A stretch of 64,000 nt of DNA. Source: Atopobium sp. oral taxon 199 str. F0494 (GTDB taxonomy: Bacteria; Actinomycetota; Coriobacteriia; Coriobacteriales; Atopobiaceae). A program made the translations under genes and the position numbers. The stretch spans positions 124,001 to 188,000 of the forward strand of contig NZ_KE150486.1 of assembly GCF_000411555.1 (NCBI RefSeq), given 5' to 3'. The notes beneath the pieces were generated by a model. It ran no database searches. It saw only the letters and a list, made by a program, of their open reading frames with translations, and had not been told where the DNA came from. Each line of letters opens with the position of its first letter. Within the stretch, counting starts at the first letter, position 1. This document shows, in pieces, positions 504 to 62,491 of this stretch.

Positions 504-1459
504 TGGCGATATTTACCGGAGACAATAACAGCAAGAGCGTCCAAAAAGCGGAGCGCATTGCCGCCGACGCCATGCAGGCTCAGCAAGCCGAAACCGTCCG
601 CACCGGCAAGACTCGGGCAACCAGCTATTGGGCGGTAAGTTGGAACATTTTCAAGCGCAATCGTTTGGGCGTGTTCTGCCTCGGTATCGTGGGTATTTTG
701 GTGCTGGTGGCGCTTCTCGCGCCGGTGCTTGCGCCCTATGACTTCAAGACGCAGGAGCTCTCCAATATGCTGGCGGCTCCAGGTGCGGCGCACCCCTTTG
801 GCACCGATGAGTTTGGCCGTGACATTTTGTCGCGCGTCATTTACGGTTGCCAGATTTCGCTTTCCGTAGGCGTTGTTTCGCAGCTGATAGCCCTGTTGAT
901 TGGGTTTACCGCCGGTGTTGTGGCCGGCTATTACGGCGGCCGCGTTGATGCGGTTATCTCCTTTGTTATTCAGGTCTTCTCTAGCTTCCCGTTCTTGCTG
1001 TTTGCCATTCTCATCATGTTTGTGATGGGACCAGGTCTCATTAACCTTTATGTGGCGCTTGGCCTTTTGATGTGGACAACTACAGCGCGGCTGATTCGTG
1101 GCGATGTCATGCGGCTCAAAAATTCCGAGTACATTCAGTCATGCGTTTTATCCGGTGGCAACGACCTGCGCATTATTTTGCGCCACCTGCTTCCTAACTG
1201 CGTGTCGACGCTGATTGTGGTTTCGACGCTCGGCATCCCAAGCGCCATTCTGTCTGAGGCCTCCCTTTCGTTTTTGGGTCTTGGCGTGCAGCCGCCGACG
1301 GCAAGTTGGGGGCAGATGATTTCGGCCTCACAGCCCTACATCCAAAGCAACCCAACGTACAGTATTATCCCGGGTATTGCCATTATCATTACTGTTATGG
1401 CGTTCAACCTGCTCGGCGATGCCCTGCGCGACGCGCTTGACCCGAAGATGCGCTCGTAG
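503..1459 (+). CDS. Peptide-type ABC transporter permease, DppC/OppC family
   Basis: Second membrane subunit of the same importer, 318 aa, a usual length for the family. A charged N-terminal cytoplasmic segment (~50 aa) precedes the first membrane helix (FCLGIVGILVLVALLAPVLA). Then comes the signature HPFGTDEFGRDILSRVIYG at about residues 95-115, typical of the DppC branch, and an EAA loop (SGGNDLRIILRHLLPN) near residue 215. The ATG overlaps the preceding stop by one base, and the next gene starts 13 bases after its stop behind GGGAGGG. It should pair with the preceding permease to form the translocation pore. Confidence 0.94.
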   Translation: MAIFTGDNNSKSVQKAERIAADAMQAQQAETVRTGKTRATSYWAVSWNIFKRNRLGVFCLGIVGILVLVALLAPVLAPYDFKTQELSNMLAAPGAAHPFGTDEFGRDILSRVIYGCQISLSVGVVSQLIALLIGFTAGVVAGYYGGRVDAVISFVIQVFSSFPFLLFAILIMFVMGPGLINLYVALGLLMWTTTARLIRGDVMRLKNSEYIQSCVLSGGNDLRIILRHLLPNCVSTLIVVSTLGIPSAILSEASLSFLGLGVQPPTASWGQMISASQPYIQSNPTYSIIPGIAIIITVMAFNLLGDALRDALDPKMRS

Positions 1460-1471
1460 GGGAGGGACACC

Positions 1472-2557
1472 ATGGAAAACACTACCAAAATCGCTGACTT
1501 TTGCAGCCTTAAAGAGCGTGAACTTGCCAAAAAGACAGCGCGTGAGCAGCGAGAAGAACAGCGCAACAGAGACGTTCTTCTCGACGTCAGTCACTTGGAC
1601 GTTACGCTGTTTACCGAAGATGGAATGCTGCCCGCCGTTGACGACCTTTCGTTCAGTATGCGTCGCGGTGAAACGCTGGCTGTGGTGGGTGAGTCGGGCT
1701 GCGGCAAATCGATGACTGCGCTTTCGGTGATGGGACTTCTGCCTCAGCCGCCGGCAAAGATCACGGGCGGCAGTATCGTTTTTGAAGGCATTGACCTAGC
1801 TGGGCTTTCGCGTGACGGCATGCGACCTTTCCGCGGGAACCGCATTGGCATGATTTTTCAGGAGCCCATGACCTCGCTTAATCCTGTTATGAAAGCGGGA
1901 GATCAGATCCGCGAGGGTATCTTGGTACACAATCCCAAAATGGGAAAGAAGGAGGCGGGAGCCCGCGCGCTCGACATGATTAGGCTTGTGGGTATTCCCG
2001 CGCCCGAGAAGGTCTTTGGCAGCTATCCGCATGAGTTGTCCGGCGGTATGCGGCAGCGCGTCATGATTGCCATGGCTCTGGCGTGCCAGCCATCGCTTCT
2101 GATTTGCGATGAGCCTACGACTGCGCTCGACGTGACCGTACAAGCTCAAATCCTGCAGATTATTGACCGCATGAAATCTGAGATGGGTACGGCGATTATG
2201 CTCATCACGCATGACATGGGTGTCGTATCCGAGATGGCCGACTGGGTCCTTGTTATGTATGCGGGCCACCGTGTTGAATATGCGCAGGCGGCGGAGCTCT
2301 TTACGAATCCCTTACATCCCTACGCCCAGGGTCTTATCGCGTCCATTCCGTCGTTTGATGAGCGCTCTGAGGAACTGTACGCCATTCCCGGTAACGTGCC
2401 GATGCTTTCCGCGATGCCGACGGGTTGTCCGTTTCATCCGCGCTGTCCGTTTGCGAAAGATATCTGCCGCGAGAAGCGTCCGCAGTCGGAGCCGGTTGAG
2501 GGAAACGAGTGTCACACCGTCTCATGTTGGAAGTATCGTAAGGAGTGGGGTGAATAA
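1472..2557 (+). CDS. Peptide-type ABC transporter ATPase, DppD/OppD family
   Basis: Cytoplasmic nucleotide-binding subunit, 361 aa. It carries Walker A GESGCGKS around residues 73-80, the ABC signature LSGGMRQRV, Walker [13 protein letters not shown] and the switch histidine in ITHDMG. The C-terminal oligopeptide domain keeps the four-cysteine pattern (GCPFHPRC, then DIC and ECHTVSC) that binds an iron-sulfur cluster in characterised DppD proteins. An unusually long N-terminal extension of about 35 charged residues precedes the ABC domain. The ATG at 1472 follows a good GGGAGGG ribosome site. Its stop overlaps the next start (TAATG). Confidence 0.94.
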
Positions 2558-3591
2558 TGGCCGACAGCTTGCAAAAAAACAATGATTCAGCCGATGTGGT
2601 GCTGAGCGTTGCACATCTGGTCAAACACTATCCTATCAAGTCGGGTGTGTTCAGCCGTTCGAGCGCTGTTATTCACGCCGTTGAGGACGTTTCGTTTGAG
2701 CTGCACCGGGGCGAGACGCTTGCTATTGTCGGGGAGTCCGGCTGCGGCAAGTCTACAACCGGCAAGTGCGTGCTTCGTTTGACTGAGCCTACCTCAGGCA
2801 AAGTGATGCTTGATGGAGTGGACTTTACCAGCCTCAAGGGTTCCGCGCTGAAAGACGCCCGGCAGAAGATGAAACTCATTTTTCAGGACCCGTACAGCTC
2901 CTTGAACCCTCGCATGACGGTCATGGATATCATCGGCGAGCCGATAGATATTGCACAAGCATATCCGACCCGCGCCGAGCGTAACGCCCGCATTGAAGAG
3001 GTTATGCAGGAAGTGGGACTTGACCTTGCCTTCAAGTACCGCTATCCGCACGAGTTCTCCGGTGGCCAGCGTCAGCGTATTGGTATCGCCCGCGCTATTG
3101 TGCTTGAGCCTGAGATTGTCGTATGTGATGAGCCCGTATCAGCCTTAGACGTTTCTGTGCAGGCAAAAGTAATCAACTTGCTTGAGCAGCTTCAGTGCGA
3201 ACACGGGCTGTCGTATATCTTCATCAGCCACGACCTTTCCGTGGTTCGCCACATTGCCGATACCGTTATGGTGATGTATCTGGGCCATGAGATGGAGTTT
3301 GCGTCTAAGTCAGAGCTGTTCGAAGATCCGCTGCACCCGTATACCCAGGCTCTTCTCGACGTCATTCCGCGCATTCGTCATGAGCATATCCAGGACAAAA
3401 AGATTCTGCAAGGAGATGTTCCTAGTCCGGCCGATCCGCCCTCGGGATGCGTATTCCATACGCGCTGTCCCAAGGCTATGAAGGTCTGCTCAAAGCGGAG
3501 GCCCGAGCTGTTGGAACCAAAATCGGGCCATGTGTGTGCGTGCCATTTGTATGACGAGAGCCTGAGCGCTGAGGAGCGTAAGCCGCTATAG
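2557..3591 (+). CDS. Peptide-type ABC transporter ATPase, DppF/OppF family
   Basis: Second ATPase of the importer, 344 aa, expected to dimerise with the preceding one under the two permeases. It has Walker [10 protein letters not shown], signature FSGGQRQRI, Walker [13 protein letters not shown] and an ISHDLS switch. The C-terminal cysteine motif ([18 protein letters not shown]) is intact. It starts on the ATG overlapping the upstream stop and is the last gene of the operon; a strong hairpin terminator follows 68 bases later. Confidence 0.94.
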
Positions 3592-3659
3592 CGGAGGCGT
3601 TGTGTGTGATTCCCACATAATCTAAACACATTTCTAAAAAATAGTACATTTGTACTGGT

Positions 3660-3694
3660 AACCCTGCTTCTTGTATGGAGAAGCAGGGTTTTCT
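3660..3694 (+). terminator. Rho-independent terminator of the peptide transporter operon
   Basis: Perfect 12-bp stem AACCCTGCTTCT / AGAAGCAGGGTT (3660-3671 with 3679-3690), 7-base loop, then TTCT. It separates the transporter operon from the mraZ leader. Confidence 0.88.
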
Positions 3695-3749
3695 ACTAGA
3701 TATTGTGGTTACAGGACGAAATTTCATACAAGCGACATCCTCCCAGCTA

Positions 3750-3818
3750 AAAGTGGAGAAAATATTTTGTGGGGCAAAGTGTTTTCTAGTGTTTAAAAGT
3801 GTTGAATTGAGCTATATT
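3750..3818 (+). promoter_or_regulatory. MraZ-box array and probable dcw promoter
   Basis: Four in-register 10-base units at 3766, 3776, 3786 and 3796 each carry GTG at the same place; three read AGTGTT (3778, 3788, 3798). A fifth, off-register AAAGTGG lies at 3750. Direct repeats with 10-bp period around a GTG core are how MraZ sites look in Mollicutes (AAAGTG[T/G]N3) and, in TGGG form, in E. coli. A -10-like TATATT follows at 3813-3818; no good -35 is visible. The position, ending about 195 bases before mraZ, suggests autoregulation of the whole cluster. The remainder (3819-3987) is a leader without a clear gene or hairpin. Confidence 0.72.
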
Positions 3819-3999
3819 TATCTCACGTTCGAATGGCGAATGAGCGTTATGCCGACGACCGCCGCGCACATACACCCTAAACACACTACGCGCGGCACAC
3901 TCGGCAGACGCGACTACACGATCCGGCATCGGTCTTGCGGCCCAAAGGACCCAAGACGTTGAAGCTCAAGGCTTCGAGACGATACGAAAGGAGGAGGAC

Positions 4000-4437
4000 A
4001 TGCTCACTGGTCAGTATCAGCGCTCATTGGACTCCAAGATTCGTGTCACGCTTCCGGCAACTCAGCGCAAAGAGCTGGGCGATTCTGTCGTTCTCATTCG
4101 CCGCAAGGACGCGCTTCACGGCTACGCGCCTGAAGCCTACGAGGCGTTTGTTGCGTCCATTCCTATGGAAGGTAAGGATCCCCGTCAGGTGGATAAGGCT
4201 TTGCGGTCTCTCAATGCCCGTGCGACGACGGTCGATATCGACTCGGCCGGCCGCGTGGCTCTGGGCAAGATCGACGAATCCGATCCGACTGCCCGCGGGG
4301 ATCTTGATCTCAAGCGCGACGTCACTATCGTTGGCAACGGTGACCACATTGAGATTTGGGACACCGAGAAGTGGGACGACTACTTCAATGCCGATAGCGG
4401 TGTCGACGCTCTTGAGAATCTCATCTTCGGCTCGTAG
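4000..4437 (+). CDS. mraZ: Transcriptional regulator MraZ
   Basis: DNA-binding regulator of the division/cell-wall cluster, 145 aa, the normal length. Two SpoVT/AbrB-like swapped-hairpin halves are visible: the N-terminal half (GQYQRSLDSKIRVTLPATQRKELG) and a second half (STVDIDSAGRV-like segment, VDIDSAGRVALGKID) around residues 75-90. The family forms a ring that binds short direct repeats in its own promoter, and such repeats are present upstream (3766-3805). The ATG has a very strong ribosome site, AAAGGAGGAGG. It is the first gene of the dcw operon. Confidence 0.95.
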   Translation: MLTGQYQRSLDSKIRVTLPATQRKELGDSVVLIRRKDALHGYAPEAYEAFVASIPMEGKDPRQVDKALRSLNARATTVDIDSAGRVALGKIDESDPTARGDLDLKRDVTIVGNGDHIEIWDTEKWDDYFNADSGVDALENLIFGS

Positions 4438-4455
4438 GGCAAAGGCGAGAAGAAC

Positions 4456-5433
4456 GTGGAACGTAGCAACTTGACAGTTGAATATCGGCACCAACCTGTG
4501 ATGCTCGCCGAAGTGCTTCGAGAACTTAATCCCAAGCCGGGCGAAATCGTATGCGACTGCACGCTGGGCGGAGCTGGGCACACCATTGAACTTGCAAAGC
4601 GTATCGTGCCCGACGGCCTTTCCATTGGCATTGATCAGGATGCTATGGCGCACGAGGCCGCAGCCGCCCGCATGGCGCGCGAAGTTCCTGACGCGGAGTT
4701 TCTGCCGCTCAAGGGCAACTTCGGGGACCTTGACGAACTTCTCGTCAAGGCGGAAGTTCCCGGCGTGGACTGCTTCCTTTTTGACATCGGCGTGTCGTCA
4801 CCGCAGCTTGATATCCCAGAAAGGGGCTTTTCGTACCGCGAAGACGCCCCGTTGGATATGAGAATGGATCCGGGGAAACACACTCCAACCGCGCAAGAGG
4901 TCATCAACACCTATACCGAAGCCGACCTCACCCGTATCCTTCGCGTTTTTGGCGACGAGAAGTTTGCGCCGCGCATCGCGCGCAGCATTGTGGAAGCGCG
5001 CAAGAAGGCTCCTATCGAGACGACCTTGCAACTTGTGGAGGTTATCAAGGAAGGAATTCCCGCGGCGGCCCGTCGTCATGGCGGACATCCCGCCCGTAAG
5101 ACCTTTCAGGCGCTGCGTATCGAGGTCAATCATGAACTTGACGTGCTTGAGCGCGGTCTTCGTTCTGCGATTGCATGGGCAAATCCCAAGGGCAGAATCT
5201 GCGTGATTTCGTATCACTCGCTTGAAGATCGCATTGTCAAGCATGTTTTTTCCGAGCTCAGCCAGGGTTGTATCTGTCCGCCTGACCTTCCGGTCTGCGT
5301 GTGCGGACAAGTGTCGATAGTCGATGTGAAGACCAAAAAACCTCTGACGGCCACGCCGGAAGAGATTGCGAAAAACCCACGGGCGCGAAGCGCGCTCATG
5401 CGCGTAGCGGTAAAACGCGACGCGAACATATGA
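4456..5433 (+). CDS. rsmH: 16S rRNA m4C1402 methyltransferase RsmH (MraW)
   Basis: Methylates N4 of C1402 in 16S rRNA using S-adenosylmethionine, 325 aa. SAM-binding motifs CDCTLGGAGHT (about residues 35-45) and FDIGVSSPQLD are clear, as is the conserved RKTFQALRIEVNHEL and SYHSLEDRIVKH. The GTG start at 4456 lies 18 bases after mraZ; the gap carries GGCGAGAAG, which may serve as a weak ribosome site and is also a copy of the dispersed octamer described in the findings. Position after mraZ is universal for this gene. Confidence 0.95.
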   Translation: MERSNLTVEYRHQPVMLAEVLRELNPKPGEIVCDCTLGGAGHTIELAKRIVPDGLSIGIDQDAMAHEAAAARMAREVPDAEFLPLKGNFGDLDELLVKAEVPGVDCFLFDIGVSSPQLDIPERGFSYREDAPLDMRMDPGKHTPTAQEVINTYTEADLTRILRVFGDEKFAPRIARSIVEARKKAPIETTLQLVEVIKEGIPAAARRHGGHPARKTFQALRIEVNHELDVLERGLRSAIAWANPKGRICVISYHSLEDRIVKHVFSELSQGCICPPDLPVCVCGQVSIVDVKTKKPLTATPEEIAKNPRARSALMRVAVKRDANI

Positions 5434-5489
5434 AAGAAGAGCAGGGAAGCCTGCGCACCGGGTGAAAGCCCACGAGAGGATTGAACAAC

Positions 5490-5915
5490 ATGGCACGCTA
5501 TGCATCAGAGGCGATTGACATGACCGCAGAAGAGAGGGCCTACGAGCGCCGTCAGACATCTGCTCGTCCCTCATTTGAAGTGGTTACCGGCGGTGGCCTT
5601 GATGCCCATGCGCGCCGTGGCGTGTCCTCTCAATTTGTCTCTGCCGTTGTGATGGCGGTTCTCGCGTTTGCACTTGTTTTCGCTGTGGGCGTGGGACGTG
5701 TGGCAATCTCCACAATGACCGTCTCAAAACTCCAAGCGAACAATGAGACGCGTGTGACGATGCGTCAGATGACAACGGAAAACGACAACCTTCGCATCTC
5801 TCGCTCCCTTCTCTCCAGCAATACTCGAATCGAGAAAATCGCGACGCAGAACTATGGCATGAAACTTTCTGAGAACCGTGCGGTCCTGAACCTCAACGGC
5901 TCTCCGCAGGCGTAA
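5490..5915 (+). CDS. ftsL: FtsL-like divisome protein
   Basis: Small bitopic membrane protein, 141 aa: about 50 cytoplasmic residues, one membrane helix (VSAVVMAVLAFALVFAVGVGR, about 48-68), then an extracytoplasmic coiled coil with a regular hydrophobic pattern (ISTMTVSKLQANNETRV...). FtsL scaffolds FtsQ and the FtsW-FtsI pair. Sequence similarity within FtsL is always weak; the call rests on topology, size and position between rsmH and ftsI. ATG 5490 is chosen because GAGAGGA lies nine bases ahead; an in-frame TTG at 5481 is less likely. Confidence 0.85.
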   Translation: MARYASEAIDMTAEERAYERRQTSARPSFEVVTGGGLDAHARRGVSSQFVSAVVMAVLAFALVFAVGVGRVAISTMTVSKLQANNETRVTMRQMTTENDNLRISRSLLSSNTRIEKIATQNYGMKLSENRAVLNLNGSPQA

Positions 5916-5925
5916 ACTATATGCT

Positions 5926-7737
5926 GTGAGTACTACGACGAGAAATAACAACCGCCGCAGGCGGAGGAATGCTCCGGAGGCCTCGTATGACGAGGCCTCT
6001 CGTGTGCGTTATCGCACCCGCGCGGGCGTTGTCGGCAACGCGGCAAGCGACGATACTCTTTTTGGGCGCCGCTTTACCGTGCTTTTTGCCATCATGGGTT
6101 TTATCGCCGTCGTTATTTTGGGATTTCTCTTCTTCTACCAGGTCATCAATCAAAAAAGCCTTGCAAAAGGCGCTGAAGAAAATCGAACGAACGTTATAAC
6201 GCTTCACGCCAAGCGCGGCACCATCTATGACAGAAACGGCAACGTCCTTGCTATGAGCGTTGACTGCAAAGATATCTATTGCAATCCGAAGGAGATTAAA
6301 GACCCCTCCGGCGTAGCGCAGGTGCTTGCGGACAACCTCGGCGGAAAACCGGGCGACTATCTTGACGCTCTCAAGCAAGATACTACCTTCGCCTACGTTA
6401 AGCGTCAGGCGGACAAAGACGCGGCGGCGAAGGTCAAAGCCGCGCTTGAGGAAAAGAAGCTTGCCGGCGTGTACTACGTTGACAACACCAAGCGTGTGTA
6501 TCCGTATGGAAACGTTGGTGTCCAAATCCTGGGCTATGTCGGCAGCGAGGGCAAGGGGATATCTGGTCTCGAATACTATTACGACAAAGAGCTTTCCGGC
6601 AAAGATGGCGAGATGATTATGGAGGCGGGTCTTGGTGGCACGCCTATCGCCGGGGGATCTTCTCAGGTAACTGAAGCACAAAACGGCAAGGATATTGTAC
6701 TGTCGCTTGACATCGCCTTGCAGCAGGAAGCGGAAAAACAGCTCACGCAGGCAGTCAAGGACAATGAAGCCAAAGACGGCGGCTCTCTTCTCGCCATGAA
6801 CCCCAAAAACGGCGAAATTTACGCGGCATGTTCGTATCCGCTACCGGACTTCTCGGGCAAAACTGAGCTTGACCCTGATTCACTGACGTTTAAGCTGGTG
6901 TCCAATTCCTACGAGCCCGGTTCGGTCTTTAAGGTTGTAACCACGGCTATTGGCATGCAAAACAACCTCTTTGGGCCCAATTCCACCTTTACTGTTCCGC
7001 TTACCATCGACGTGGGTGGCCATACCGTTGAAGACGATGACTGGCGCGGCAGCGCCATGGACATGACGGTCACCGAAATGATGCGCCGTTCTTCCAATGT
7101 TGGCATGGCAACCCTTGAGACTCAAATCATCGGTGATGAACGCTTTGCTCAAGGCGTTGAGAACCTCGGCATCGGCCACGCGACCGGCATTGATTTTCCC
7201 GGAGAAGCGGACGGCATTGTGAAACCGATTGACAAATATGAGTCGTATACGGGCGGCAACATGTCGTTTGGGCAGGGGCTTGCCATCCCGCTCATTCAGG
7301 TCACGCGCGTCTACGCGGCCGTCGCCAACGGTGGAAATCTGGTAACGCCCCACTTTGCTACCTCCATGGGCGGCAAGGATATTGACTGGCCGGTCAAAGA
7401 AGGCGTCTTGAGTGAGGCGACGTGCGACGGCGAGAAGGACATGCTCCGCACAGTCATCCGGGAGGGAACCGGCGTCCGCGCGCAGGTGCAGGGGTATGAC
7501 GTCGCCGGTAAGACGGGAACCGGTCAGCAGGTGGACAAAAAGACGAGCGCCTATGACAACTCTGGCCACTACGTCTCTTCGCTTTGTGGCTTCGCCAATG
7601 CGCAAGATCCTGACGTCTTGGTATATGTTGGTCTTAACGATACGTCCCAGCTGGCGTCCCAGTCGGCTGCGGTAACGTTTTCAACATTCATGAAAGCGAC
7701 TGTCACGCAGCTGGGCATTCCGCCTGCGACACAGTAA
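5926..7737 (+). CDS. ftsI: Septal peptidoglycan transpeptidase FtsI (class B PBP)
   Basis: Cross-links septal peptidoglycan, 603 aa. A short arginine-rich cytoplasmic tail (NNNRRRRRN) precedes one membrane helix (about 48-70), then the dimerisation domain and the transpeptidase. Catalytic motifs: S333-VFK (SxxK), S389-SN (SxN) and K529-TG. No PASTA domains follow. The GTG at 5926 follows ftsL by 10 bases. In many Gram-positive clusters murE comes next; here murF does. Confidence 0.95.
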   Translation: MSTTTRNNNRRRRRNAPEASYDEASRVRYRTRAGVVGNAASDDTLFGRRFTVLFAIMGFIAVVILGFLFFYQVINQKSLAKGAEENRTNVITLHAKRGTIYDRNGNVLAMSVDCKDIYCNPKEIKDPSGVAQVLADNLGGKPGDYLDALKQDTTFAYVKRQADKDAAAKVKAALEEKKLAGVYYVDNTKRVYPYGNVGVQILGYVGSEGKGISGLEYYYDKELSGKDGEMIMEAGLGGTPIAGGSSQVTEAQNGKDIVLSLDIALQQEAEKQLTQAVKDNEAKDGGSLLAMNPKNGEIYAACSYPLPDFSGKTELDPDSLTFKLVSNSYEPGSVFKVVTTAIGMQNNLFGPNSTFTVPLTIDVGGHTVEDDDWRGSAMDMTVTEMMRRSSNVGMATLETQIIGDERFAQGVENLGIGHATGIDFPGEADGIVKPIDKYESYTGGNMSFGQGLAIPLIQVTRVYAAVANGGNLVTPHFATSMGGKDIDWPVKEGVLSEATCDGEKDMLRTVIREGTGVRAQVQGYDVAGKTGTGQQVDKKTSAYDNSGHYVSSLCGFANAQDPDVLVYVGLNDTSQLASQSAAVTFSTFMKATVTQLGIPPATQ

Positions 7738-7749
7738 GTGGGAGGTCAT

Positions 7750-9195
7750 ATGATTCGCATGTCTGCGCGGGACGTAGCCAAGGCTACACAAGCCGCGCTT
7801 CTTGTAGAGGGAACGCGCCCGCTTGCCGGCGAGGTGGAGATTGATTCCCGCCGCGTTGACAAGGACTCGCTTTTTGTCGCGTTTGCTGGCGAGAAGGTCG
7901 ACGGAAACTCCTATGTTGACGCGGCGCTTGACGCAGGAGCCGCAATCGTATGCGTCAGCGCTGAGCCCGCGGCGGCCACACTCGACCACGCCGGTGCGAT
8001 GGGAGCAAGTGTACTTCGCGCGGTTGACGATGATTGCGAAGAGTTTCTCTTGTGCCTTGCGGGGGAGTGGCGGCGCCTGCATCCGAGCTGGACGGTGGTT
8101 GCCGTGACCGGTTCTGTCGGCAAGACCACTACCAAAGACATGCTGAAAACAGGCATCGCGACGGCCAAGCGCGTGCATGCGACTTCAGGCAATCACAACA
8201 ACCTCATTGGCCTTCCGATGACCGTGCTTTCGGCTCCCGAGGACACGGAGGTGCTGGTCTGCGAATGCGGCATGAACCACAAAGGCGAGATTTCGCGCCT
8301 TACACGCTGCTGTCGTCCGGCTCTTGCCGTCATTACGAATGTTGGTACCAGCCACATCGGTTTTCTCGGCAGCCGCGAGAATATCGCGTGCGCCAAGGCT
8401 GAGATTGTGGAAGGCATGGAGGCTCACGGAAGCATTCAACCTACGCTCATTCTGGGAAGCGCGGGCGATTTTACCTCATTTATCAGCGAGCAGTTCGCGC
8501 GTCCTGCGGGTGTCTCCACGGTGTGCGTGGGAACGCGAGCTGAAGACGTTTTGAGAGCTGAAGACATATCCGTCAATGAGGAGAGTCTTCCTACCGCAAC
8601 CTTTGTAGCCTGTGATGGCTGGAAAAAGACGGTAACGCTTTCGGTGCCGGGTCGCGCCGTGGTGGACGATGCCTTAATGGCCCTGGAAACAATCACGCTC
8701 TTGGGGCTTGACCGCGATGCCGCTCTTGACGCCATTGCGTCTATGCCTGCCGTCAGCATGCGCCTTTCGGTGCTTACCGCCGCTAACGGTGCGCGCATTA
8801 TTGACGACTCGTACAACGCTAGTCCGAACTCTGTCGCGGCGGCGCTTGACGTGTTGTGTCACATGCCGGCCAAGGGACGGCGCATTGCTATTCTTGGCGA
8901 GATTGGAGAGCTTGGCGCTGACGAGAAGCGCCTCCACGCGTATGTGGGCGCTTATGTCGCCGCGAAACCCATCGATATGGCGGTTTTTGTCGGCACGGGT
9001 CCTGCGCGCGAGATGGCTGAGGCGGCGCGCGTGATGGGTCTTTCGGAAGACGCCATTGAGACATTTGATACTGTTGAAGATTTGTCTAAGATATTTGCAC
9101 CTGTAGTAGAGGCCGGAGATGTCGTGCTGGTTAAGGCGTCTCGTTCTGCCGGACTTGATGCGTTTGTCAAAGGAGTGGTTGCGAATGATCGGTAA
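7750..9195 (+). CDS. murF: UDP-MurNAc-tripeptide--D-Ala-D-Ala ligase MurF
   Basis: Adds D-Ala-D-Ala to the UDP-MurNAc peptide in the cytoplasm, 481 aa. The Mur-ligase ATP loop VTGSVGKTTTKDML lies near residue 120; the central domain shows SGNHNNLIGLP and ECGMNHKGEI, and the C-terminal ligase domain has IDDSYNASPNSV. ATG 7750 follows GGAGGT; the frame is open to a GTG at 7738 directly after the ftsI stop, but that start has no ribosome site. Its end overlaps mraY by 11 bases. D,D-ligase specificity (MurF rather than MurE) is judged from the NASPxS motif and its place before mraY. Confidence 0.94.
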   Translation: MIRMSARDVAKATQAALLVEGTRPLAGEVEIDSRRVDKDSLFVAFAGEKVDGNSYVDAALDAGAAIVCVSAEPAAATLDHAGAMGASVLRAVDDDCEEFLLCLAGEWRRLHPSWTVVAVTGSVGKTTTKDMLKTGIATAKRVHATSGNHNNLIGLPMTVLSAPEDTEVLVCECGMNHKGEISRLTRCCRPALAVITNVGTSHIGFLGSRENIACAKAEIVEGMEAHGSIQPTLILGSAGDFTSFISEQFARPAGVSTVCVGTRAEDVLRAEDISVNEESLPTATFVACDGWKKTVTLSVPGRAVVDDALMALETITLLGLDRDAALDAIASMPAVSMRLSVLTAANGARIIDDSYNASPNSVAAALDVLCHMPAKGRRIAILGEIGELGADEKRLHAYVGAYVAAKPIDMAVFVGTGPAREMAEAARVMGLSEDAIETFDTVEDLSKIFAPVVEAGDVVLVKASRSAGLDAFVKGVVANDR

Positions 9196-10216
9196 TCCGG
9201 CCTATCCAACCTATCAGGTATTTCTCGCCTTCGGTATTTCAGCGGCTATCACGCTTGTAGGGATGCCGCTCTTCATACGGATGATGCGCAAGGAGGGCGT
9301 AGGGCAGCAGATACGTGCGGACGGTCCGCAGCAGCATCTGAAAAAGCAGGGAACTCCTACGATGGGCGGCGTGGTCATGCTGCTTGCGACCGTAGCCACC
9401 TGCGTCCTGTGCTCTACCTGGAGTACCGATCTTATTCTCGCGATGGCTGCTATGCTGCTGACCGGCTCGCTGGGTCTTCTTGACGACATTGAATCGGTGG
9501 CGCATCGCCGCTCGCTGGGCCTGACACCTTCTCAGAAAATGCTGGGTCTGATTACCATTTCGGTAGTGTTTTGTCTGCTGTCCGTCAACGTCTTGGGCAT
9601 CGCGCCCGTAATTGCGTTTCCGGGCGGGTTCAGCATCAATTTAGGCGTCTTGACGTCAACGTTTGTGTTTGGAAACACGACAGTGAACGTGCCGTGGCTG
9701 TATCTCTTCTTTGTCTTTTTACTGATGGCCGGTTTGTCTAACGCCGTCAATCTGACTGATGGCCTTGATGGCCTCGCGGGCGGGTGCGTCATGGTGGTTA
9801 TGCTGGTCATGGCGGCCGTGGCCTTTCGGTACGGTGAGGTCAATCTAGCTGTCTTTGCCGCCGCTATCGCCGGCGCCTGCATCGGTTTTCTCTGGTTCAA
9901 CAGCTATCCCGCTTCAATTTTTATGGGCGACACCGGCTCTCTTGCCTGGGGAGCGGCTCTTGCGGCCTTGGCCGTGCTCACAAAGACCGAAGTGGTCTCT
10001 TTGGTGATGGGTGGGCTCTTCATCATTGAAGCGCTTTCAGTCATTATCCAGGTGGTCAGTTTCAAGCTCACAGGCAAGCGCGTGTTTTTGATGGCGCCCC
10101 TGCACCACCATTTTGAGAAGCTCGGCTGGAATGAGACGAAGGTAGTTATCCGCTTCTGGATCATTTCCGGAGCCTTCGCTGCGCTTGGCTTCGCCCTCTA
10201 TTTTCAACTCGGATAA
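9185..10216 (+). CDS. mraY: Phospho-MurNAc-pentapeptide transferase MraY
   Basis: Integral membrane enzyme transferring phospho-MurNAc-pentapeptide to undecaprenyl phosphate (lipid I synthesis), 343 aa, about ten membrane helices. Family motifs: KKQGTPTMGG (about 55-64), the aspartate-rich LLDDIES, NLTDGLDGLAGG, and FMGDTGSLAWG, followed by MAPLHHHFEKLGW. ATG 9185 overlaps murF by 11 bases and has AAAGGAG seven bases ahead; upstream in-frame starts would overlap murF more deeply without a ribosome site. Confidence 0.96.
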   Translation: MIGNPAYPTYQVFLAFGISAAITLVGMPLFIRMMRKEGVGQQIRADGPQQHLKKQGTPTMGGVVMLLATVATCVLCSTWSTDLILAMAAMLLTGSLGLLDDIESVAHRRSLGLTPSQKMLGLITISVVFCLLSVNVLGIAPVIAFPGGFSINLGVLTSTFVFGNTTVNVPWLYLFFVFLLMAGLSNAVNLTDGLDGLAGGCVMVVMLVMAAVAFRYGEVNLAVFAAAIAGACIGFLWFNSYPASIFMGDTGSLAWGAALAALAVLTKTEVVSLVMGGLFIIEALSVIIQVVSFKLTGKRVFLMAPLHHHFEKLGWNETKVVIRFWIISGAFAALGFALYFQLG

Positions 10217-48409: not shown

Positions 48410-48433
48410 GGACGGGACGGCGTAGGCACTGGG

Positions 48434-48542: not shown

Positions 48543-48698
48543 CGTGGACATACGCATTTTGCGTAAATACACACATGTCGTGTCTCAAAAGGGCACGGCA
48601 TGTGTTATTCTATTACGTCAGTTTGCGCTTGCCGATGTACGAGCTTCTCGCCGACCGGCCTGCGCGGCAAAAATGTAAGCATCAAAAGGAGACTTTTC

Positions 48699-49023: not shown

Positions 49024-49144
49024 TGCCTGTTAATGCATTTCCGAGAAACGAGAACAACTGGAAAAGCGAGAAGCGAGAAGCAAGAAGGGTCATCGAGAAA
49101 TCCAGGCAGTTTTTCCTACGGTTTCAAACTTCCGGGGCTCCCAG

Positions 49145-49269
49145 TTTCCAAAAAAGTGCATGAGTTGTGATATGAAAACTCCTAAAAAAGGCATCAGTTG
49201 TGATAAATCCCCTAAAAATGTCATGAGTTGTGAAATCTTTTTATCACAACTGTGGCACTTTTTTGGAAA
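49145..49269. repeat. Foldback repeat element with alternative pairing
   Basis: AGTTGTGA occurs three times directly (49163, 49196, 49226) and once inverted (49243-49251). Left arm 49145-49171 and right arm 49243-49269 are 27 bases each and complementary except for three central bases. The middle copy can also pair over 12 bases with the same right arm, and the third over 8. It sits in a 563-base intergenic stretch (48957-49519) with no credible ORF. Looks like a small mobile or structured RNA element. Confidence 0.65.
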
Positions 49270-49447
49270 TGGTAGGGAAGCGGCGCAGGAGCGGCGCGGA
49301 AGCGGCATAGAAGCGGCAGGGAATTCGAAGGGCATCAAGCAAAACGGCGAGAAGTGACTTTCCAAGCGATGCCAAAAGCCGCGCGCTGTCACAGTGCCTT
49401 GTTACGTTGTGTTTATTATGTTGCGGTTGTTACGTAATTGTTTCTTC

Positions 49448-53516: not shown

Positions 53517-53652
53517 ACGGCGAGAAGTGGCTTCGGTGGTCCTCCACCGGGCTCGGTTGGCTTCAGTCGACTTCGCCGACCGCTAGCTGTAAACGCCCTC
53601 AACCGTCTTCAGCAGGCTTCAGTACCTAGCCTCCTTGTTTTACAGCACGCTA

Positions 53653-53985: not shown

Positions 53986-56202
53986 ATGGCAGAACAAGAA
54001 CTGAGCGTACGATCCATTGACGGTATCGTTGAAGGCAGTGTTACCGCGACGCTTGCGCGTATTTTGCAGCTCGTGGGAGACGCCGTTATTGTTTTTGACC
54101 AAGAGGGACGGGTACTTCTCGCCAATGACGAAGCTGTCAGACTGTTTGAATACCACGAAAGAAACCTTATAGGATCTGATATCCGCACCTTCTTTACGCC
54201 TGGCGACGCGGAAGATCGGTCGACGGCATTTGACGCGGAGGCGCTCCCATTCCCAGTTGACGGAAGCACAGCGCTTGTAACGGTCGCGGACGCCGCCGGT
54301 GAACCATTGACGCTGCGCGTGCGTTCTGAGCGGGCAGGGGCGCCCACAGAGGCTTTTGTGCTTGTTGTTGTACCGGTGAGTGACGAGGCGACGTCTGAGC
54401 GAGAAGAACAGCGCACCATAGAGGAGCTCCGCCGGGCAAACAAGCGGCTTTCCGGAGCACTTAATATCGTGTTGGATACGCTTGATTCCGAAAATATGGG
54501 GCAGTTGCTTGAGCGTGTCATCGCTGAGATTGCTGACACTATGGAGGCCGACGGTTCCCTCATCTATCTTGCGGAACATGATGGCTTTCACCTACATGGG
54601 ACAACCGAGTCTATCGCGCGCTCATCGGCGCCGCGGTTTGTGGGGTACGGGCATCTGATAGAAAATCTCTGCGCGGATACGGGCCATGCGCTCAGGCTGC
54701 GCGTGGCGCCGCCGAATCCTCAGGATTTGCGTGCCGGACGCCTGACCTCTCGTGATGTAGTCAACGACGATACGCGTGAGGTGTATGAGGTTGCGGTTCG
54801 TCATTTGCCGCCGTTCGTCAGTTTTATCGCGGTACCTGTGTGGTTTGGTGGTCAGATTATAGCGCTGATTGAAGTGGGCTGGAAAACCGTGCATCCCCTG
54901 AATTCTGACGACACGCGCCTGCTTGATTCCATCTCAAATTACCTTTCAGTGCAGTTGGTGGGTGCGCTTTCTACGATGCGGACGCAACGGCGCAATGAGT
55001 TGCGTGAGCTTGCGCTTGATGTTCGCAACCGTTTGACGGCCGCTGCCGGCGCTCAAGAGGGTGGAGCCAGCAGAGTTCTGCCCGAGGTCATGCAAGAGGT
55101 GGCAGAGGCTCTCGATGCCGTGGTATATCCTGTCGTGTGCTGCGAAGTGTCCGGCAGGCCTGTAGTTCACCCCGCGGACGCTCCGGTATTTGAGCTGCCC
55201 GCTGGTTTAGGGGAGATTTCCGAGAAGGACGAGGAAGCTCAGGTCATAGCCATTGCTCCCGACTCTGTCATAAGTGAGGAACTCCGCGCTTTGCAGCAAC
55301 CGTGCATAGGCGCGGCTCTTCTCGCTGGGAAAATAGAAGACAAGCGCCGGACCTGGCTTTTCTTGCGGCCGTATGATTCGGAGCCTATGAGCGACATCGA
55401 CCTTGAATTGCTGCAGCGCGTGGCTCTCAATGTGAGGGCTATTGTGGCGGGCGCGGAAGAAAGCAAGCAAAACAAGCGTATCTCGCAGGCGCTGATGACA
55501 GGCATGAAGAATGAACTGCAGCATATTGATGGTATCGAGGCGCAAGGAATCTATTCGTCCGCGACCGCGGCAGCCTTTGTCGGCGGCGATTTCTACAGCC
55601 TTGTGAGACTTTCGGGACGTCGAGCCTGCGTTATTATGGGCGATGTTTCCGGTAAGGGCATTGAAGCCGCCTCCGTGTCATCGGCCGTGAAGACGGCGCT
55701 TTCCGCATACGCGTGGGAGGGGATTGGTCCTGCTCGCATGGTGGCGAATCTAAACGAGTTTCTTTTGGGCTTCTCGCGCATCGAAACGTTTGCGACGTTG
55801 TTTGTCGGCGTGGTCGATTTGGCGAAGGGCGTGTTGACATACTGTTCAGCGGGACATCCACCCGCGGCGCTTGTGCGCGCCGCTACGGGCGAGGCGCAGC
55901 TTTTGGATGTGCAGTCCGGTGTCGTGGGAGCGTTTCAGGATATGACATACAAAAACGGCTACGTTGAGCTGCGTAAAGATGACGTTTTATTTCTGTACAC
56001 CGACGGTACGACTGAGGCGAGAAGCCCCGAGGGTGCATTTTTTGGCGAGACGGGCTTGCGTGACATGGTCATGAGTGAAGTTCCTCATGGCTTTGAAGGA
56101 CTGCTTGACCGCTTTTTGGCGACGCTGGATGCCTATACAGGACGCAGCCTTGAAGATGACGTTGCTATGGTCGCCTTGCGGTTTTCCGGGCTGCCGGCGT
56201 AG
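53986..56202 (+). CDS. PAS/GAF sensor with PP2C-type (RsbU/SpoIIE) serine phosphatase
   Basis: 738 aa, no membrane helices. PAS domain at about 20-130 (ILQLVGDAVIVFDQEGRVLLANDEAVRLF), a short coiled coil, a GAF domain at about 165-330 (LLERVIAEIADTMEADGSLIYL), a second GAF-like region at about 350-480, and a C-terminal PPM phosphatase at about 510-735 with GGDFYSL, MGDVSGKGIEAA, CSAGHPPA, LFLYTDGTTEA and DDVAM metal-site motifs. Such proteins dephosphorylate anti-anti-sigma factors in response to signals; the next gene encodes such a domain. ATG 53986 follows GAAAGGCGG. Confidence 0.9.
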   Translation: MAEQELSVRSIDGIVEGSVTATLARILQLVGDAVIVFDQEGRVLLANDEAVRLFEYHERNLIGSDIRTFFTPGDAEDRSTAFDAEALPFPVDGSTALVTVADAAGEPLTLRVRSERAGAPTEAFVLVVVPVSDEATSEREEQRTIEELRRANKRLSGALNIVLDTLDSENMGQLLERVIAEIADTMEADGSLIYLAEHDGFHLHGTTESIARSSAPRFVGYGHLIENLCADTGHALRLRVAPPNPQDLRAGRLTSRDVVNDDTREVYEVAVRHLPPFVSFIAVPVWFGGQIIALIEVGWKTVHPLNSDDTRLLDSISNYLSVQLVGALSTMRTQRRNELRELALDVRNRLTAAAGAQEGGASRVLPEVMQEVAEALDAVVYPVVCCEVSGRPVVHPADAPVFELPAGLGEISEKDEEAQVIAIAPDSVISEELRALQQPCIGAALLAGKIEDKRRTWLFLRPYDSEPMSDIDLELLQRVALNVRAIVAGAEESKQNKRISQALMTGMKNELQHIDGIEAQGIYSSATAAAFVGGDFYSLVRLSGRRACVIMGDVSGKGIEAASVSSAVKTALSAYAWEGIGPARMVANLNEFLLGFSRIETFATLFVGVVDLAKGVLTYCSAGHPPAALVRAATGEAQLLDVQSGVVGAFQDMTYKNGYVELRKDDVLFLYTDGTTEARSPEGAFFGETGLRDMVMSEVPHGFEGLLDRFLATLDAYTGRSLEDDVAMVALRFSGLPA

Positions 56203-56312: not shown

Positions 56313-57074
56313 ATGCACGTATGTGGGAACAAAGCCTGTATGCGCACAAAACCAAACATAGCCTTGCTTTCTGTAAACTCTGATCTTGATGTCACCGCAG
56401 TTCCTGCAGTGCGACGCGAGGTCGAAGAGCTTTTAAATCAAGGCTGTCAGCGTATCGTGTTGAACATGGCCGATGTATCCTACATTGATTCGGCCGGCAT
56501 GAGCTTTATCATGTGCGCCTTGCGCCGTGTTCGTTCAACCGGTGGACTTATGAGCCTTACCAATGTGTCGCAGCCGGTGTTTCGCTGTCTTTCGCGTATG
56601 CGTCTGGTTGATTTTATGCCAGTGACACGCGTTGGCGCGCATGCGCACGTTGCTCCTTTGGATCCTAGGGTGCGTCCGCTTTGGCAGACGACGTTTCGGG
56701 TGGACCCTTCCGCGCTGTACGCTGCCCGCGCTCGTGTGGATGAACTTCTCGCCAGCGTACCGTTTTCAAGCGACGCGATGTTTGACCTCAAGCTCGCGGT
56801 GGGCGAGGCTCTTGGCAATGCCGCGGATCATACGTGTGAGGGTGGCATCTTAACAACCGTTGCAATGTATCCCGATCGTGTAACGGTGGACGTCGCTGAT
56901 TGCGGCAGGGGATATGCGCTGGCAGACGATGAGGAACCTCCCGACGTTGATTGCTGTGCTGAGAGGGGTCGCGGTATCAAGCTGATGCGCTTGCTGACTG
57001 ATGCTGTGTCGATTTCGGTCAAGCCGTCGGGCAAGGGGACTGTGGTGCATCTTGTGAAACTGGTGCGTTCGTGA
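56313..57074 (+). CDS. Fused anti-anti-sigma (STAS) and anti-sigma kinase (RsbW-like HATPase) protein
   Basis: 253 aa. Residues ~15-110 form a STAS domain with the phosphorylatable DSAG loop (SYIDSAGMSFIMCAL). Residues ~130-250 form a GHKL kinase: N box LAVGEALGNAADHT, G1 DVADCGRGY, G2 RGRGIKLM. In partner switching these are normally separate proteins; here antagonist and kinase share a chain. The PP2C phosphatase directly upstream is the expected partner; no sigma factor gene is in the window. Start uncertain: ATG 56313 has no clear ribosome site, and ATG 56340 (nine residues shorter) is an alternative. Confidence 0.85.
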   Translation: MHVCGNKACMRTKPNIALLSVNSDLDVTAVPAVRREVEELLNQGCQRIVLNMADVSYIDSAGMSFIMCALRRVRSTGGLMSLTNVSQPVFRCLSRMRLVDFMPVTRVGAHAHVAPLDPRVRPLWQTTFRVDPSALYAARARVDELLASVPFSSDAMFDLKLAVGEALGNAADHTCEGGILTTVAMYPDRVTVDVADCGRGYALADDEEPPDVDCCAERGRGIKLMRLLTDAVSISVKPSGKGTVVHLVKLVRS

Positions 57075-58423: not shown

Positions 58424-58424
58424 T

Positions 58425-59744: not shown

Positions 59745-60885
59745 GACGGTATACCTGGGTATGAGCGGCGGCGTTGATTCGGCGCTTTCGGCTGCCCTTC
59801 TGTTGGAGCAGGGCTATGACGTCAGGGCTGTTTATATGCGCAACTGGTCGCAAGACCTGCCGGGATTTCGTTGTCCGTGGGCCGACGATTTGGCTGACGC
59901 GGAACGCGTGGCCGTCTCTCTCGGCATCGACTTGGCCGTTTGGGATTGCGAGAAGGAATACCGGGAAACAGTCGTTGACTACCTGCTTGACTCCTACGCC
60001 CACGGCTATACGCCCAATCCCGATGTCATGTGCAATCAAACGGTCAAGTTTGGCACCTTTGCCGAGCGCGCCTTTGCTGAAGGGGCCGATTATGTGGCAA
60101 CAGGTCATTATGCTCGCGTGGCGTATGGCGAGAAGAACGTCCAAGGCGTGCACCATGCAAGGGTAGACGGTACTTCTCGCGAAGCAAGTATTTCTTGTCT
60201 CATGCGCGCCGCTGATGAGTACAAAGACCAGACGTACTTCCTCTGGCGTGTGCCGGGGCGTCTTTTTGAGAAGACAATCTTTCCGATTGGTGATATTCCC
60301 ACAAAAGCCGAGGTACGCGCCATGTGCGCCGAGCGTGGCCTGGGTATTGAGAACAAGCCTGATTCCGACGGTATCTGTTTTATCGGACCGGTAGGACTCC
60401 GTACGTTTTTGCTGAATGCGCTTGAGCAAAAAGAAGGCGATATCATTGAATGGGAGAGCGGCAAAAAGCTCGGCGAGCATGACGGCGCGTTTTTGTTTAC
60501 CGTCGGACAGCGCAAGGGGTTGTCGATTGGCGGCGGACCTGCTCGCTACGTCGTAGCAACGGATACCGATACAAACATCGTGTATGTGACGGCGGACAAC
60601 AAAAGCCCGGCGCTTTGGACGCAAATGATGGATATCGCTGATACGCATTGGATTTCAGGAAGCGCTCCTGCAGATGGAAGGTATACGGTGCGCACGCGTC
60701 ACACCGGAGAGCTGCGTTCTTGTCTGCTGACAAAGACAGGAGACGCAACCGCGCGCATTACCTATGAATCGCCGGTTCGCACGGTGGCTCCCGGTCAGTC
60801 AGCCGTTTTGTATGATGGGCTGGTGTGTGTAGGCGGAGGAATCATTGAGCGAGACGATGGACTTCTCGCCCAGTTCAAAGAATAA
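59737..60885 (+). CDS. mnmA: tRNA-specific 2-thiouridylase MnmA
   Basis: Forms s2U34 in tRNAs for Lys, Glu and Gln, 382 aa. PP-loop GMSGGVDSALSAALL near the N terminus; catalytic cysteines C99 (NPDVMCN) and C214 (SDGICFIG); ATGHYAR, KDQTYFLWRV, and VGQRKGLSIGGGPARYVV. The segment between GHYAR and KDQTYFL is about 20 residues longer than usual. Start ATG 59737 overlaps the desulfurase stop and follows GAGGAG, so sulfur donor and user are co-expressed. Confidence 0.95.
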   Translation: MTKTVYLGMSGGVDSALSAALLLEQGYDVRAVYMRNWSQDLPGFRCPWADDLADAERVAVSLGIDLAVWDCEKEYRETVVDYLLDSYAHGYTPNPDVMCNQTVKFGTFAERAFAEGADYVATGHYARVAYGEKNVQGVHHARVDGTSREASISCLMRAADEYKDQTYFLWRVPGRLFEKTIFPIGDIPTKAEVRAMCAERGLGIENKPDSDGICFIGPVGLRTFLLNALEQKEGDIIEWESGKKLGEHDGAFLFTVGQRKGLSIGGGPARYVVATDTDTNIVYVTADNKSPALWTQMMDIADTHWISGSAPADGRYTVRTRHTGELRSCLLTKTGDATARITYESPVRTVAPGQSAVLYDGLVCVGGGIIERDDGLLAQFKE

Positions 60886-60906: not shown

Positions 60907-60977
60907 GTCGCCAGGAAGTAAACGGCCGCCAGGGGATAAACAGCACCAGGGGACAGGCAATCGCCAAAGAGGAAACA
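60907..60977 (+). repeat. 18-bp-periodic intergenic repeats after mnmA
   Basis: Units start at 60907, 60925, 60943 (17 bases) and 60960, each with a CGCCAGG or ACCAGGGG-like core and ending in AAAC or similar. A weaker unit may precede at 60889. The rest of the 190-base gap shows TATACT at 61013 as a possible -10. Confidence 0.5.
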
Positions 60978-61075
60978 GTCGTGTTGTCTCGGTGAGGATT
61001 GCCCGTCACGGGTATACTTAACAGGTCAGAAAAGAAATTCCGGGGATAGACGTCAAAGAGTCCGAGGAGGTGTTC

Positions 61076-62491
61076 ATGGGTCGTTTGGAAGATTCTGCCG
61101 CATCAAAGCCTCTTGCTACAGCAAAAGCCAAAGCCACAGCTAAAGCCAAAGCAAAGGCAAAGCGCTCAGAGTCCCAAAAAGAGCCTCAAGACACTGCGTC
61201 CGTGGACGCTGGCGTTGCGACTTCTGCGCCTAAGACCTCCCAATCCGCAGCTGCCGAATCCGGACACACAAACCGCCCAAAGGTTAAGGTGGCAACTAAG
61301 GTATCGGTCGCGCCAAGCCCTGCCACCGAGTCGGTTGAGGACGCCCGCAAAAGCTACGGACAGGTTCGCAAAAGCGTTCTGTTTCTTGTACTTGTTACCG
61401 TTTTGTACGGCATCTACATTGTGTTTTCCGGTCAGTTTGACGAGTTTGTCGGCGCTCTTGCTGGTGTTGATACCGGTTGGCTCATTGCCGGAGCATTCGC
61501 TTACTTCACCTATTATTTTTTAGGCATTCTCGCTTATATCATTTCGGTTATTACGGATCCTAACTGTCCCGTTGGCATACGCGACCTCATGAGCGTTGAA
61601 GCGGCGGGCATCTTCTTCATGAACCTGACCCCCAACGGTGCGGGAGCCGCGCCTGCGCAGATTTTTCGTCTTACTCGCGCGGGTATTTCCGTGGGACAGG
61701 CAGGAGCGCTTCAGTTTACGCGCTTTGTGATGTATGAAGCGGGCGAGGGGATATTTGCTGCTCTTATCCTGCTCTTTAGGTTCAATTACTTCTTTGAGCA
61801 GTTCGGTGACGTTACCATTGTCGGCGTGGTATTGTTTGGCGCAAAGATCCTCATGGTGGGAGGCATGCTTGCTATCTGCTTGCTTCCGCGCATGGTCATT
61901 GCCGTAGGTAACTGGGGGCTCCGGGTTCTCTCACGCTTCAATATCGTGAAGCGCTACGACCATTGGTATGAGATCATCAACACGCAGGTACATGAGTTTT
62001 CATCAGGATTCAAAAACGCCGCCAAGAATGTTCCCGAGATGCTTGCAGTGCTTGTTATCACTCTGTTTCAGCTTGGCTGTCTGTACTCGCTGCCGTATTT
62101 TGTACTGCATGCCTTGGGACAGCCCGCAGACCTTTTGACCTGTCTGGCGTCCGGCTCTATGCTTGAACTTCTCACCTCGGCAATTCCGCTTCCCGGTGGC
62201 ACCGGTGGCGCTGAAGGTGGCTTTGCCTTTCTTTTTGGACATATGTTTGGCGAGAAAATCGCGGCGGGTTTTGTGCTTTGGCGTGCCATCGAGTATTTCC
62301 TCCCCACGCTCTTTGCCTCCATGCTTTTGGGTCTGCGTTCCCATGGCGGTCCAACAGTGTATCGGCGCTGGACGCAAGCTGTGTCTTCACTTTCCGCTTT
62401 CATTTCTGGCGAGAAGCGCCTGGGGCAGAAAAAGCCCGCTTCGGCCGGTGGTATCCGTGTCAAGATGGGAGCCAAGGCCAAAAAGAAGTAG
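61076..62491 (+). CDS. Integral membrane protein, lysylphosphatidylglycerol synthase TM-region (YbhN/AglD) family
   Basis: 471 aa. An N-terminal cytoplasmic tail of about 95 residues is rich in Ala and Lys, containing TAKAKA twice, encoded by an 18-bp duplication (61118-61153). It is followed by six to eight membrane helices. Family motifs: LTPNGAGAAPAQIFRLTRAGISVGQAGALQF and IPLPGGTGGAEGGFAFLF. The MprF catalytic GNAT-like domain is missing, so a flippase or other lipid role is more likely than aminoacyl transfer. ATG 61076 lies five bases after GAGGAGG; GTG 61070 overlaps that site. A basic tail (KMGAKAKKK) ends the protein. Confidence 0.85.
   Translation: MGRLEDSAASKPLATAKAKATAKAKAKAKRSESQKEPQDTASVDAGVATSAPKTSQSAAAESGHTNRPKVKVATKVSVAPSPATESVEDARKSYGQVRKSVLFLVLVTVLYGIYIVFSGQFDEFVGALAGVDTGWLIAGAFAYFTYYFLGILAYIISVITDPNCPVGIRDLMSVEAAGIFFMNLTPNGAGAAPAQIFRLTRAGISVGQAGALQFTRFVMYEAGEGIFAALILLFRFNYFFEQFGDVTIVGVVLFGAKILMVGGMLAICLLPRMVIAVGNWGLRVLSRFNIVKRYDHWYEIINTQVHEFSSGFKNAAKNVPEMLAVLVITLFQLGCLYSLPYFVLHALGQPADLLTCLASGSMLELLTSAIPLPGGTGGAEGGFAFLFGHMFGEKIAAGFVLWRAIEYFLPTLFASMLLGLRSHGGPTVYRRWTQAVSSLSAFISGEKRLGQKKPASAGGIRVKMGAKAKKK
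61118..61153 (+). repeat. 18-bp tandem duplication in the LPG-synthase-type gene
   Basis: Two units (61118-61135, 61136-61153) differ at two positions and each encode TAKAKA. Confidence 0.65.

Follow-up and report, generated by a model that had tools for sequence, protein, structure and literature searches.

The octamer GCGAGAAG, which recurs throughout a 64,000-nucleotide stretch of the genome of Atopobium sp. oral taxon 199 str. F0494 (bases 124001–188000 of contig C1, hereafter the window), forms the core of a longer word, GGCGAGAAGNNC. This word, a gapped and non-palindromic motif, is under selection and is present in hundreds of copies, both within genes and between them, and it is a lineage trait that varies as a dialect between lineages. 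It is probably the core of a genome-wide putative DNA-uptake sequence of some Coriobacteriia, which would work like the DNA uptake sequence (DUS) of the Neisseriaceae and the uptake signal sequence (USS) of the Pasteurellaceae. We favor this reading because, uptake itself aside, the word has the hallmarks used to recognize DUS and USS.

Abundance and full extent of the motif

The octamer occurs 49 times in the window, 28 times on the forward strand and 21 times on the reverse strand. The original prediction, made from the window alone, had claimed the same 49 copies, and both its count and all its coordinates were exact. It had also set the random expectation at about 2 and the enrichment at 25-fold. 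The excess is indeed strong, however the expectation is 4.2 by dinucleotide shuffles (maximum of 100 shuffles, 9) and 5.9 by an order-3 Markov model. The 25-fold figure is valid only relative to a flat expectation of 2; local models yield an excess of ~8–12 fold, with ~12-fold relative to the dinucleotide shuffles. When words with at least 6 copies are ranked by order-3 Markov z-score, GCGAGAAG is the first 8-mer and GGCGAGAAG the first 9-mer of the window.

The genome comprises 1,665,560 bases in two contigs. A sample of 484 kb, made up of the window plus 21 further 20-kb stretches, was used for the counts by coding status, substitution, strand and spacing given below. A home-made coding model called 389 genes in this sample (85% coding). 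Word counts over whole genomes were compared with a reversed control. Genome-wide, the octamer occurs 909 times (454 forward and 455 reverse) compared with 166 for the reversed control (77 and 89), a 5.5-fold excess. It is an outlier in the 484-kb sample as well, where every stretch contains copies, 2 to 17 per 20 kb, at a density of 0.75/kb in intergenic DNA and 0.53/kb in genes.

The octamer first reported is real, yet its full extent had been missed, the true word being longer and gapped. Around CGAGAAG, G-G is favored upstream and a C two bases downstream is present in 79–80% of the sites, alike for the 443 coding and the 76 intergenic sites. Given these preferences, the true word is GGCGAGAAG-NN-C, that is, GGCGAGAAGNNC. 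The C two bases past the 9-mer is present at 123 of 140 GGCGAGAAG sites. Single substitutions at positions 3–8 leave 0–12 copies each, those at positions 1 and 2 leave 13–47, and those at position 9 leave 2–21. Outside about −3 to +11, the flanks are nearly devoid of information. The full motif occurs 21 times in the window compared with 0.2 expected, 123 times in the 484-kb sample compared with 1.8 expected, and 427 times in the genome compared with 16 for the reversed control. The numbers of window copies that extend to GGCGAGAAG (26) and of first-base neighbors (32, i.e. 81 CGAGAAG minus 49) agree with the earlier estimates of about 26 and about 30.

Selection within and between genes

The commonest coding contexts of the octamer are Leu-Leu-Ala (61) and Gly-Glu-Lys (41), and ordinary codon or amino-acid bias of this kind could in principle explain the word. 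The expected coding count was obtained by permuting synonymous codons within genes (20 shuffles) and the expected intergenic count from an order-2 model (20 simulations). The full motif occurs 97 times in coding DNA compared with 6.0 after synonymous shuffling (maximum of 20 shuffles, 11), and 25 times in intergenic DNA compared with 0.25 expected (maximum of 20 simulations, 1), 16-fold and 100-fold excesses, respectively. The corresponding counts for the octamer are 217 compared with 46.9 (4.6-fold) and 54 compared with 4.05 (13-fold); an earlier run gave expectations of 42.3 and 3.5 for 217 and 53 copies seen. The coding copies use different frames, as had been claimed, with five of the six registers holding 21–78 copies each and the sixth holding 2. 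Relatives that are not rich in the word also exceed the reversed control, mostly 1–5 fold, and genomes of genus g40 often do so 5–20 fold, with ~40 copies per genome against a control of a few. Nonetheless, the g40 excess is absent relative to synonymous shuffling in 60 kb (1 compared with 1.3), and a coding bias shared by relatives is not what is seen, as some genera are enriched and others of similar or higher GC content are not. Codon bias as the cause is therefore ruled out, because the excess survives synonymous shuffling and holds between genes, and we assign practically no weight to it as the sole explanation. The original prediction had already judged codon bias to be insufficient.

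Strand balance and inverted pairs

The near-equal strand use noted in the window holds for the whole genome. Replication polarity is absent, with 132 copies on the leading strand and 139 on the lagging strand as assigned by the sign of the GC skew of each stretch (95% confidence interval for the leading fraction, 0.43–0.55). Transcription polarity is also absent (101 sense, 116 antisense). The intergenic copies are found in tandem (41), convergent (2) and divergent (5) gaps, at 0.93, 0.47 and 0.81 per kb, respectively. Short gaps between copies are rarer than random (3.4% compared with 9.5%).

Inverted pairs of the form GCGAGAAG-N(0-24)-CTTCTCGC occur 24 times genome-wide, compared with 3.1 expected at random placement and none in the reversed control. 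Nine of the 24 have a center of exactly 2 bp (0.12 expected), and therefore both copies of such a pair share a central GNNC. Pairs of this form are also seen in the congener G024 (21, of which 10 have the 2-bp center), in G084 (31) and in G055 (21), and none were found in G051 and G199. They account for 48 of the 909 octamers. When three pairs of the window were folded, one clearly surpassed its shuffles (z −3.8), one did so modestly (z −2.2) and one did not (z −0.7). The first of these pairs, whose arms are in the opposite order, forms a terminator-like hairpin at 32362–32388, which was also picked by a terminator scan.

Conservation, lineage distribution and dialects

The same-species genome G025 (98.8% identity across the aligned part of the window) preserves every one of the 49 words, compared with 94% of all coding 8-mers. 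In G024 (80% identity), 13 of the 18 coding words that align are unchanged, compared with 71 of 274 composition-matched coding 8-mers.

The survey covered 329 Coriobacteriia genomes that are at least 90% complete. Of these, 52 are word-rich, defined as containing at least 200 full motifs. They belong to 10 genera of two families. Nine of the genera are in the family of the window: g1 (5/5 genomes), g5 (1/1), g19 (1/1), g23 (2/2), g24 (1/2), g26 (3/3), g27 (2/2), g33 (25/25) and g34 (8/8). The tenth, g39 (4/4), is in the second family. The highest count of the full motif, 1393 compared with 27 for the reversed control, is that of G084. Many of the genomes below 200 contain 1–5 times the control, and intermediate counts are found in G020 (169 compared with 18), G352 (179 compared with 45) and G058 (97 compared with 15). 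The intergenic excess is reproduced in the word-rich relatives over 80–120 kb each, with 21 full motifs compared with 0.15 expected in G084, 14 compared with 0.05 in G056, 11 compared with 0.10 in G055 and 5 compared with 0.05 in G195. In genomes that are not rich no intergenic enrichment was seen in G051 (0 compared with 0.10 over 80–120 kb) or in G199 and G201 (0 compared with 0.05 over 60 kb), and G058 has one intergenic copy compared with 0.15 expected (80–120 kb).

Genus g15 is poor in the main word and has a different top word in 100 kb, TGCCGAGAA. The dialect TGCCGAGAARNNC occurs 623 times in G027 and 626 times in G028, compared with 4 and 5 for the reversed control. In 100 kb of G027, 15 copies are intergenic compared with none simulated, and 18 are coding compared with 1.1 expected. 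The dialect is also high in G141, a genome of another family of the same order (543 compared with 7). Counts of it are elevated outside this order as well, in some members of the class such as G182 (142 compared with 2), G146 (131 compared with 1) and G158 (107 compared with 1), where the claim refers to counts relative to the reversed control and sibling genomes only. In genomes rich in the main word TGCCGAGAARNNC is minor (130 compared with 6 in the genome of the window), and in G023 and G026 the base after CGAGAA is about as frequently A as G. Other highly repeated words were observed in 100 kb of G040 (g20), for example CTCACGGAAA with 20 copies and ATTTGTGTAC with 11, which are perhaps interspersed repeats.

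Competence machinery

The genome of the window contains comEA adjoining comEC, as well as dprA. Its Tad locus encodes an RcpC/SAF-domain protein, TadZ-like and TadA-like ATPases, two T2SSF proteins, a Flp-like pilin and TadE/TadG-like proteins, several of these matches falling below curated cut-offs. ComEC and ComEA were each found in 323 of the 329 Coriobacteriia genomes (ComEA in 311 above the curated cut-off), and DprA in all 21 genomes chosen for that search. A TadA-like ATPase is present in each of the 104 genomes of the family that are at least 90% complete, with best E-values of 6e-101 to 3e-79. An ATPase search, the only search made for a ComP/type IVa pilus, did not show one in the genome of the window.

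Genomes of g30, g13, g23 and others of the family have extra, weaker matches to the TadA model that are paired, with ~570–600 and 350–370 residues. These are the sizes of PilB- and PilT-type ATPases, the type being assigned by size only.

The word would constitute a short 'self' label on extracellular DNA, recognized by the competence machinery such that kin DNA is preferred. Most plausibly, Tad-pilus competence is the route for this putative uptake word. A subunit of the Tad pilus, or an associated surface protein, may bind the word, and the DNA would then enter via ComEA and ComEC. Recombination with kin DNA would enrich and maintain the word, a form of molecular drive.

Evaluation of the uptake-sequence reading

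The word is scarce in a resident prophage. The longest octamer gap of the sample, 17 kb, is in stretch L022 (C1:1190001–1210000), whose genes match phage terminase, VG15 and tail tube families and which is a prophage. L022 matches at 100% a 29.3-kb contig classed as viral in IMG/VR. The overlapping stretches L177 and L178 span 24.0 kb of that contig and contain 3 octamers and no full motif; L177 by itself (21.5 kb) contains 2 octamers, where 12.0 would be expected from the density in the host. Second among the word-poorest 10-kb stretches is a restriction island at positions 1–9736 of stretch L019, which encodes type I HsdR and HsdM and a GmrSD-type enzyme; no octamer was found in the first 10 kb of this stretch.

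Several observations weigh against an uptake sequence. The prophage and the restriction island were picked as the two word-poorest 10-kb stretches and are the sole word-poor ones annotated. The spacing of the copies shows no regularity beyond random (coefficient of variation 1.17, or 1.11 once gaps up to 60 bp are excluded). G023 and G026, both at 73% identity, show weaker conservation: 5 of 12 coding words are identical in the former and 4 of 14 in the latter, compared with 27 of 249 and 30 of 252 composition-matched 8-mers, respectively. Aligned intergenic words are too few to be informative, of which 2 of 4 are identical in G024, 0 of 2 in G023 and 0 of 2 in G026, and they do not rise above the background for noncoding DNA (0.32, 0.42 and 0.45, respectively), a background that leans toward what still aligns. 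No alternative dialect appeared in 100 kb each of G051, G030 and G058. With regard to the machinery, none of the 104 TadA matches is above the curated cut-off. The gene models also match well-known control genomes, ComEC 10, ComEA 9, DprA 11 and TadA 13 of 14; because they match 9 to 13 of 14 controls, they attest to the presence of the parts rather than to competent cells. ComEC, ComEA and the TadA-like ATPase are also kept by word-poor genera such as g25, g17 and g20, and DprA is likewise found in word-poor and word-rich genomes. The machinery thus does not track the word, and the competence genes, whose presence the original prediction had suggested checking, do not separate word-rich from word-poor genera, nor does the Tad locus. 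A crude scan of 13 word-rich and 9 word-poor Tad loci, in which no pilin was listed for L158 and L175, revealed no distinguishing receptor or pilin.

The gapped motif, the symmetric GNNC center and the 2-bp-spaced dyads of the genus suggest recognition by a protein, perhaps a dimer. This would also suit a word bound by a protein of the nucleoid, of segregation or of regulation, or by another intracellular self-recognition system. We nonetheless consider such a role unlikely, as copies are found in all sampled stretches without strand polarity and in five coding registers, the intergenic copies populate tandem, convergent and divergent gaps, and chromosome packing alone does not require scarcity in the prophage. 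That scarcity would fit a Chi-like recombination hotspot, read by a helicase-nuclease of the AddAB, RecBCD or AdnAB kind and serving to protect or repair the chromosome, and Chi hotspots resemble the Coriobacteriia word in being short, non-palindromic, enriched and lineage-variable. However, known Chi words favor the leading strand. Chi and other polar words are disfavored because the Coriobacteriia word is strand-balanced, and neither the shared-center inverted pairs nor the gapped footprint is expected of a Chi word, which makes this explanation improbable.

The type I restriction-modification island raises the prospect that the word is a methylated and favored restriction-modification or epigenetic mark. 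This is very doubtful. The first 10 kb of the island's own stretch is devoid of the octamer, restriction sites tend to be avoided, not enriched, and type I sites usually have a two-part form, which the word lacks. Some copies do pair into hairpins, one of them clearly terminator-like, which would be in keeping with copies spread as terminators or as a mobile repeat family. We rejected this origin, to which we give scarcely any credence, since few of the octamers pair in the form searched and the flanks are not shared; flanks so poor in information show that no spreading element gave rise to the copies. The original prediction of an uptake-like or other selected genome-wide word is supported by the selection tests, and neither of the two outcomes that it had named as refuting was observed. 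The strand balance, inverted pairs, conservation, dialects and presence of comEA, comEC, dprA and a Tad locus fit an uptake sequence.

Copies in the window

Twelve of the 49 copies lie outside the gene calls, close to the earlier figure of about 11, although those with octamers at 4445, 46401 and 48644 depend on the start or frame called. These three are a full motif at 4444–4455 (+; frame called), an octamer at 46401–46408 (−; start choice) and a full motif at 48641–48652 (−; start choice). A perfect inverted pair in intergenic DNA comprises two full motifs, 43137–43148 (+, left arm) and 43145–43156 (−, right arm), with a 2-bp center and a shared central GNNC. The 12-bp terminator-like hairpin, also intergenic, has an octamer at 32366–32373 (−) as its left arm and a full motif at 32376–32387 (+) as its right arm. 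The other intergenic copies are octamers at 31041–31048 (−), 49066–49073 (+), 49073–49080 (+), 49347–49354 (+) and 53520–53527 (+), of which those at 49066 and 49073 overlap by one base. An inverted pair within a gene call, 25341–25358, has a 2-bp center and comprises an octamer at 25341–25348 (+, left arm) and a full motif at 25348–25359 (−, right arm).

The remaining copies are as follows. The full motif is found on the forward strand at 7429–7440, 7888–7899, 10389–10400, 27783–27794, 38657–38668, 41666–41677, 46753–46764, 56016–56027, 60127–60138 and 62408–62419, and on the reverse strand at 12996–13007, 18723–18734, 54112–54123, 56742–56753 and 60859–60870. The octamer is found on the forward strand at 1549–1556, 2469–2476, 15055–15062, 22250–22257, 29032–29039, 30801–30808, 34337–34344, 46832–46839, 54399–54406 and 59948–59955, and on the reverse strand at 713–720, 6787–6794, 19955–19962, 27578–27585, 30483–30490, 38706–38713, 38756–38763, 55318–55325, 55770–55777 and 60173–60180.

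The window also contains other repeats. Direct repeats of 20 nt, mostly 23–24 nt apart, occupy 48433–48539 just downstream of a called gene. An element of ~125 bp at 49145–49269 resembles a miniature inverted-repeat transposable element, with 28-nt terminal inverted repeats that are 89% complementary; it is found at 16 other places in G025, 13 at 94–98% identity and 3 at 80–89%. The segment 49502–51219 has a second match in G025 (C1:453179–454899) at 67% identity, beside the orthologous stretch, which suggests a local gene duplication.

Comparison with known uptake systems

If the word is an uptake sequence, it represents a further, probably independent origin of an uptake word, in a Gram-positive class. 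It would also suggest natural transformation in these actinobacteria and provide a handle for their genetics. Word-rich genera stand beside word-poor genera with the same visible competence genes, which makes the gain and loss of uptake codes directly testable. The balance tips slightly toward a broader proposition, in which monoderm actinobacteria (Coriobacteriia) independently evolved a code for taking up self DNA that has two or more dialects on the core GSCGAGAARNNC and is read by Tad/Flp-pilus competence machinery. Uptake specificity would then have arisen once more, beyond the Proteobacteria and apart from type IVa pili, and the code may be so ancient that it extends across orders of the class. 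No prior report of an uptake sequence for Atopobium, Coriobacteriia or Olsenella was found in the literature searched. A 2025 paper names the Neisseriaceae and Pasteurellaceae as the only families known to have the uptake-sequence trait (PMC12616744).

In gene content a near parallel is Micrococcus luteus, an actinobacterium of another class with the same kinds of genes (comEA, comEC and Tad). We know of no uptake word described for this organism. Its Flp/Tad pili are reported to be needed for transformation, and the same source places comEA and comEC in its genome (PMC6370729).

Judged by its letters, the word is outside the DUS and USS sequence families. The USS sequence is AAGTGCGGT. That of the DUS is given as GCCGTCTGAA (PMC6370729); inspection by eye found the core letters of neither in GGCGAGAAGNNC on either strand. 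The hosts of the USS, which is thus unrelated in sequence, are diderm proteobacteria with type IV pilus machinery. Nonetheless, the USS is described as a short extended motif with two dialects, whose receptor was long unknown (PMC12616744), and the Coriobacteriia word resembles it in both the extended motif and the two dialects. Relative to the Neisseriaceae DUS, the Coriobacteriia word is unrelated in sequence, belongs to another phylum, is accompanied by a Tad locus and is known here from sequence alone. The DUS is described as a 10–12 bp word with hundreds to thousands of genic and intergenic copies and with inverted pairs at terminators, its dialects follow lineage, and overlapping DUS dyads occur in some Neisseriaceae (PMC3630211). 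The Coriobacteriia word shares with it the many copies in coding and intergenic DNA, the inverted pairs, the overlapping dyads and the lineage dialects.

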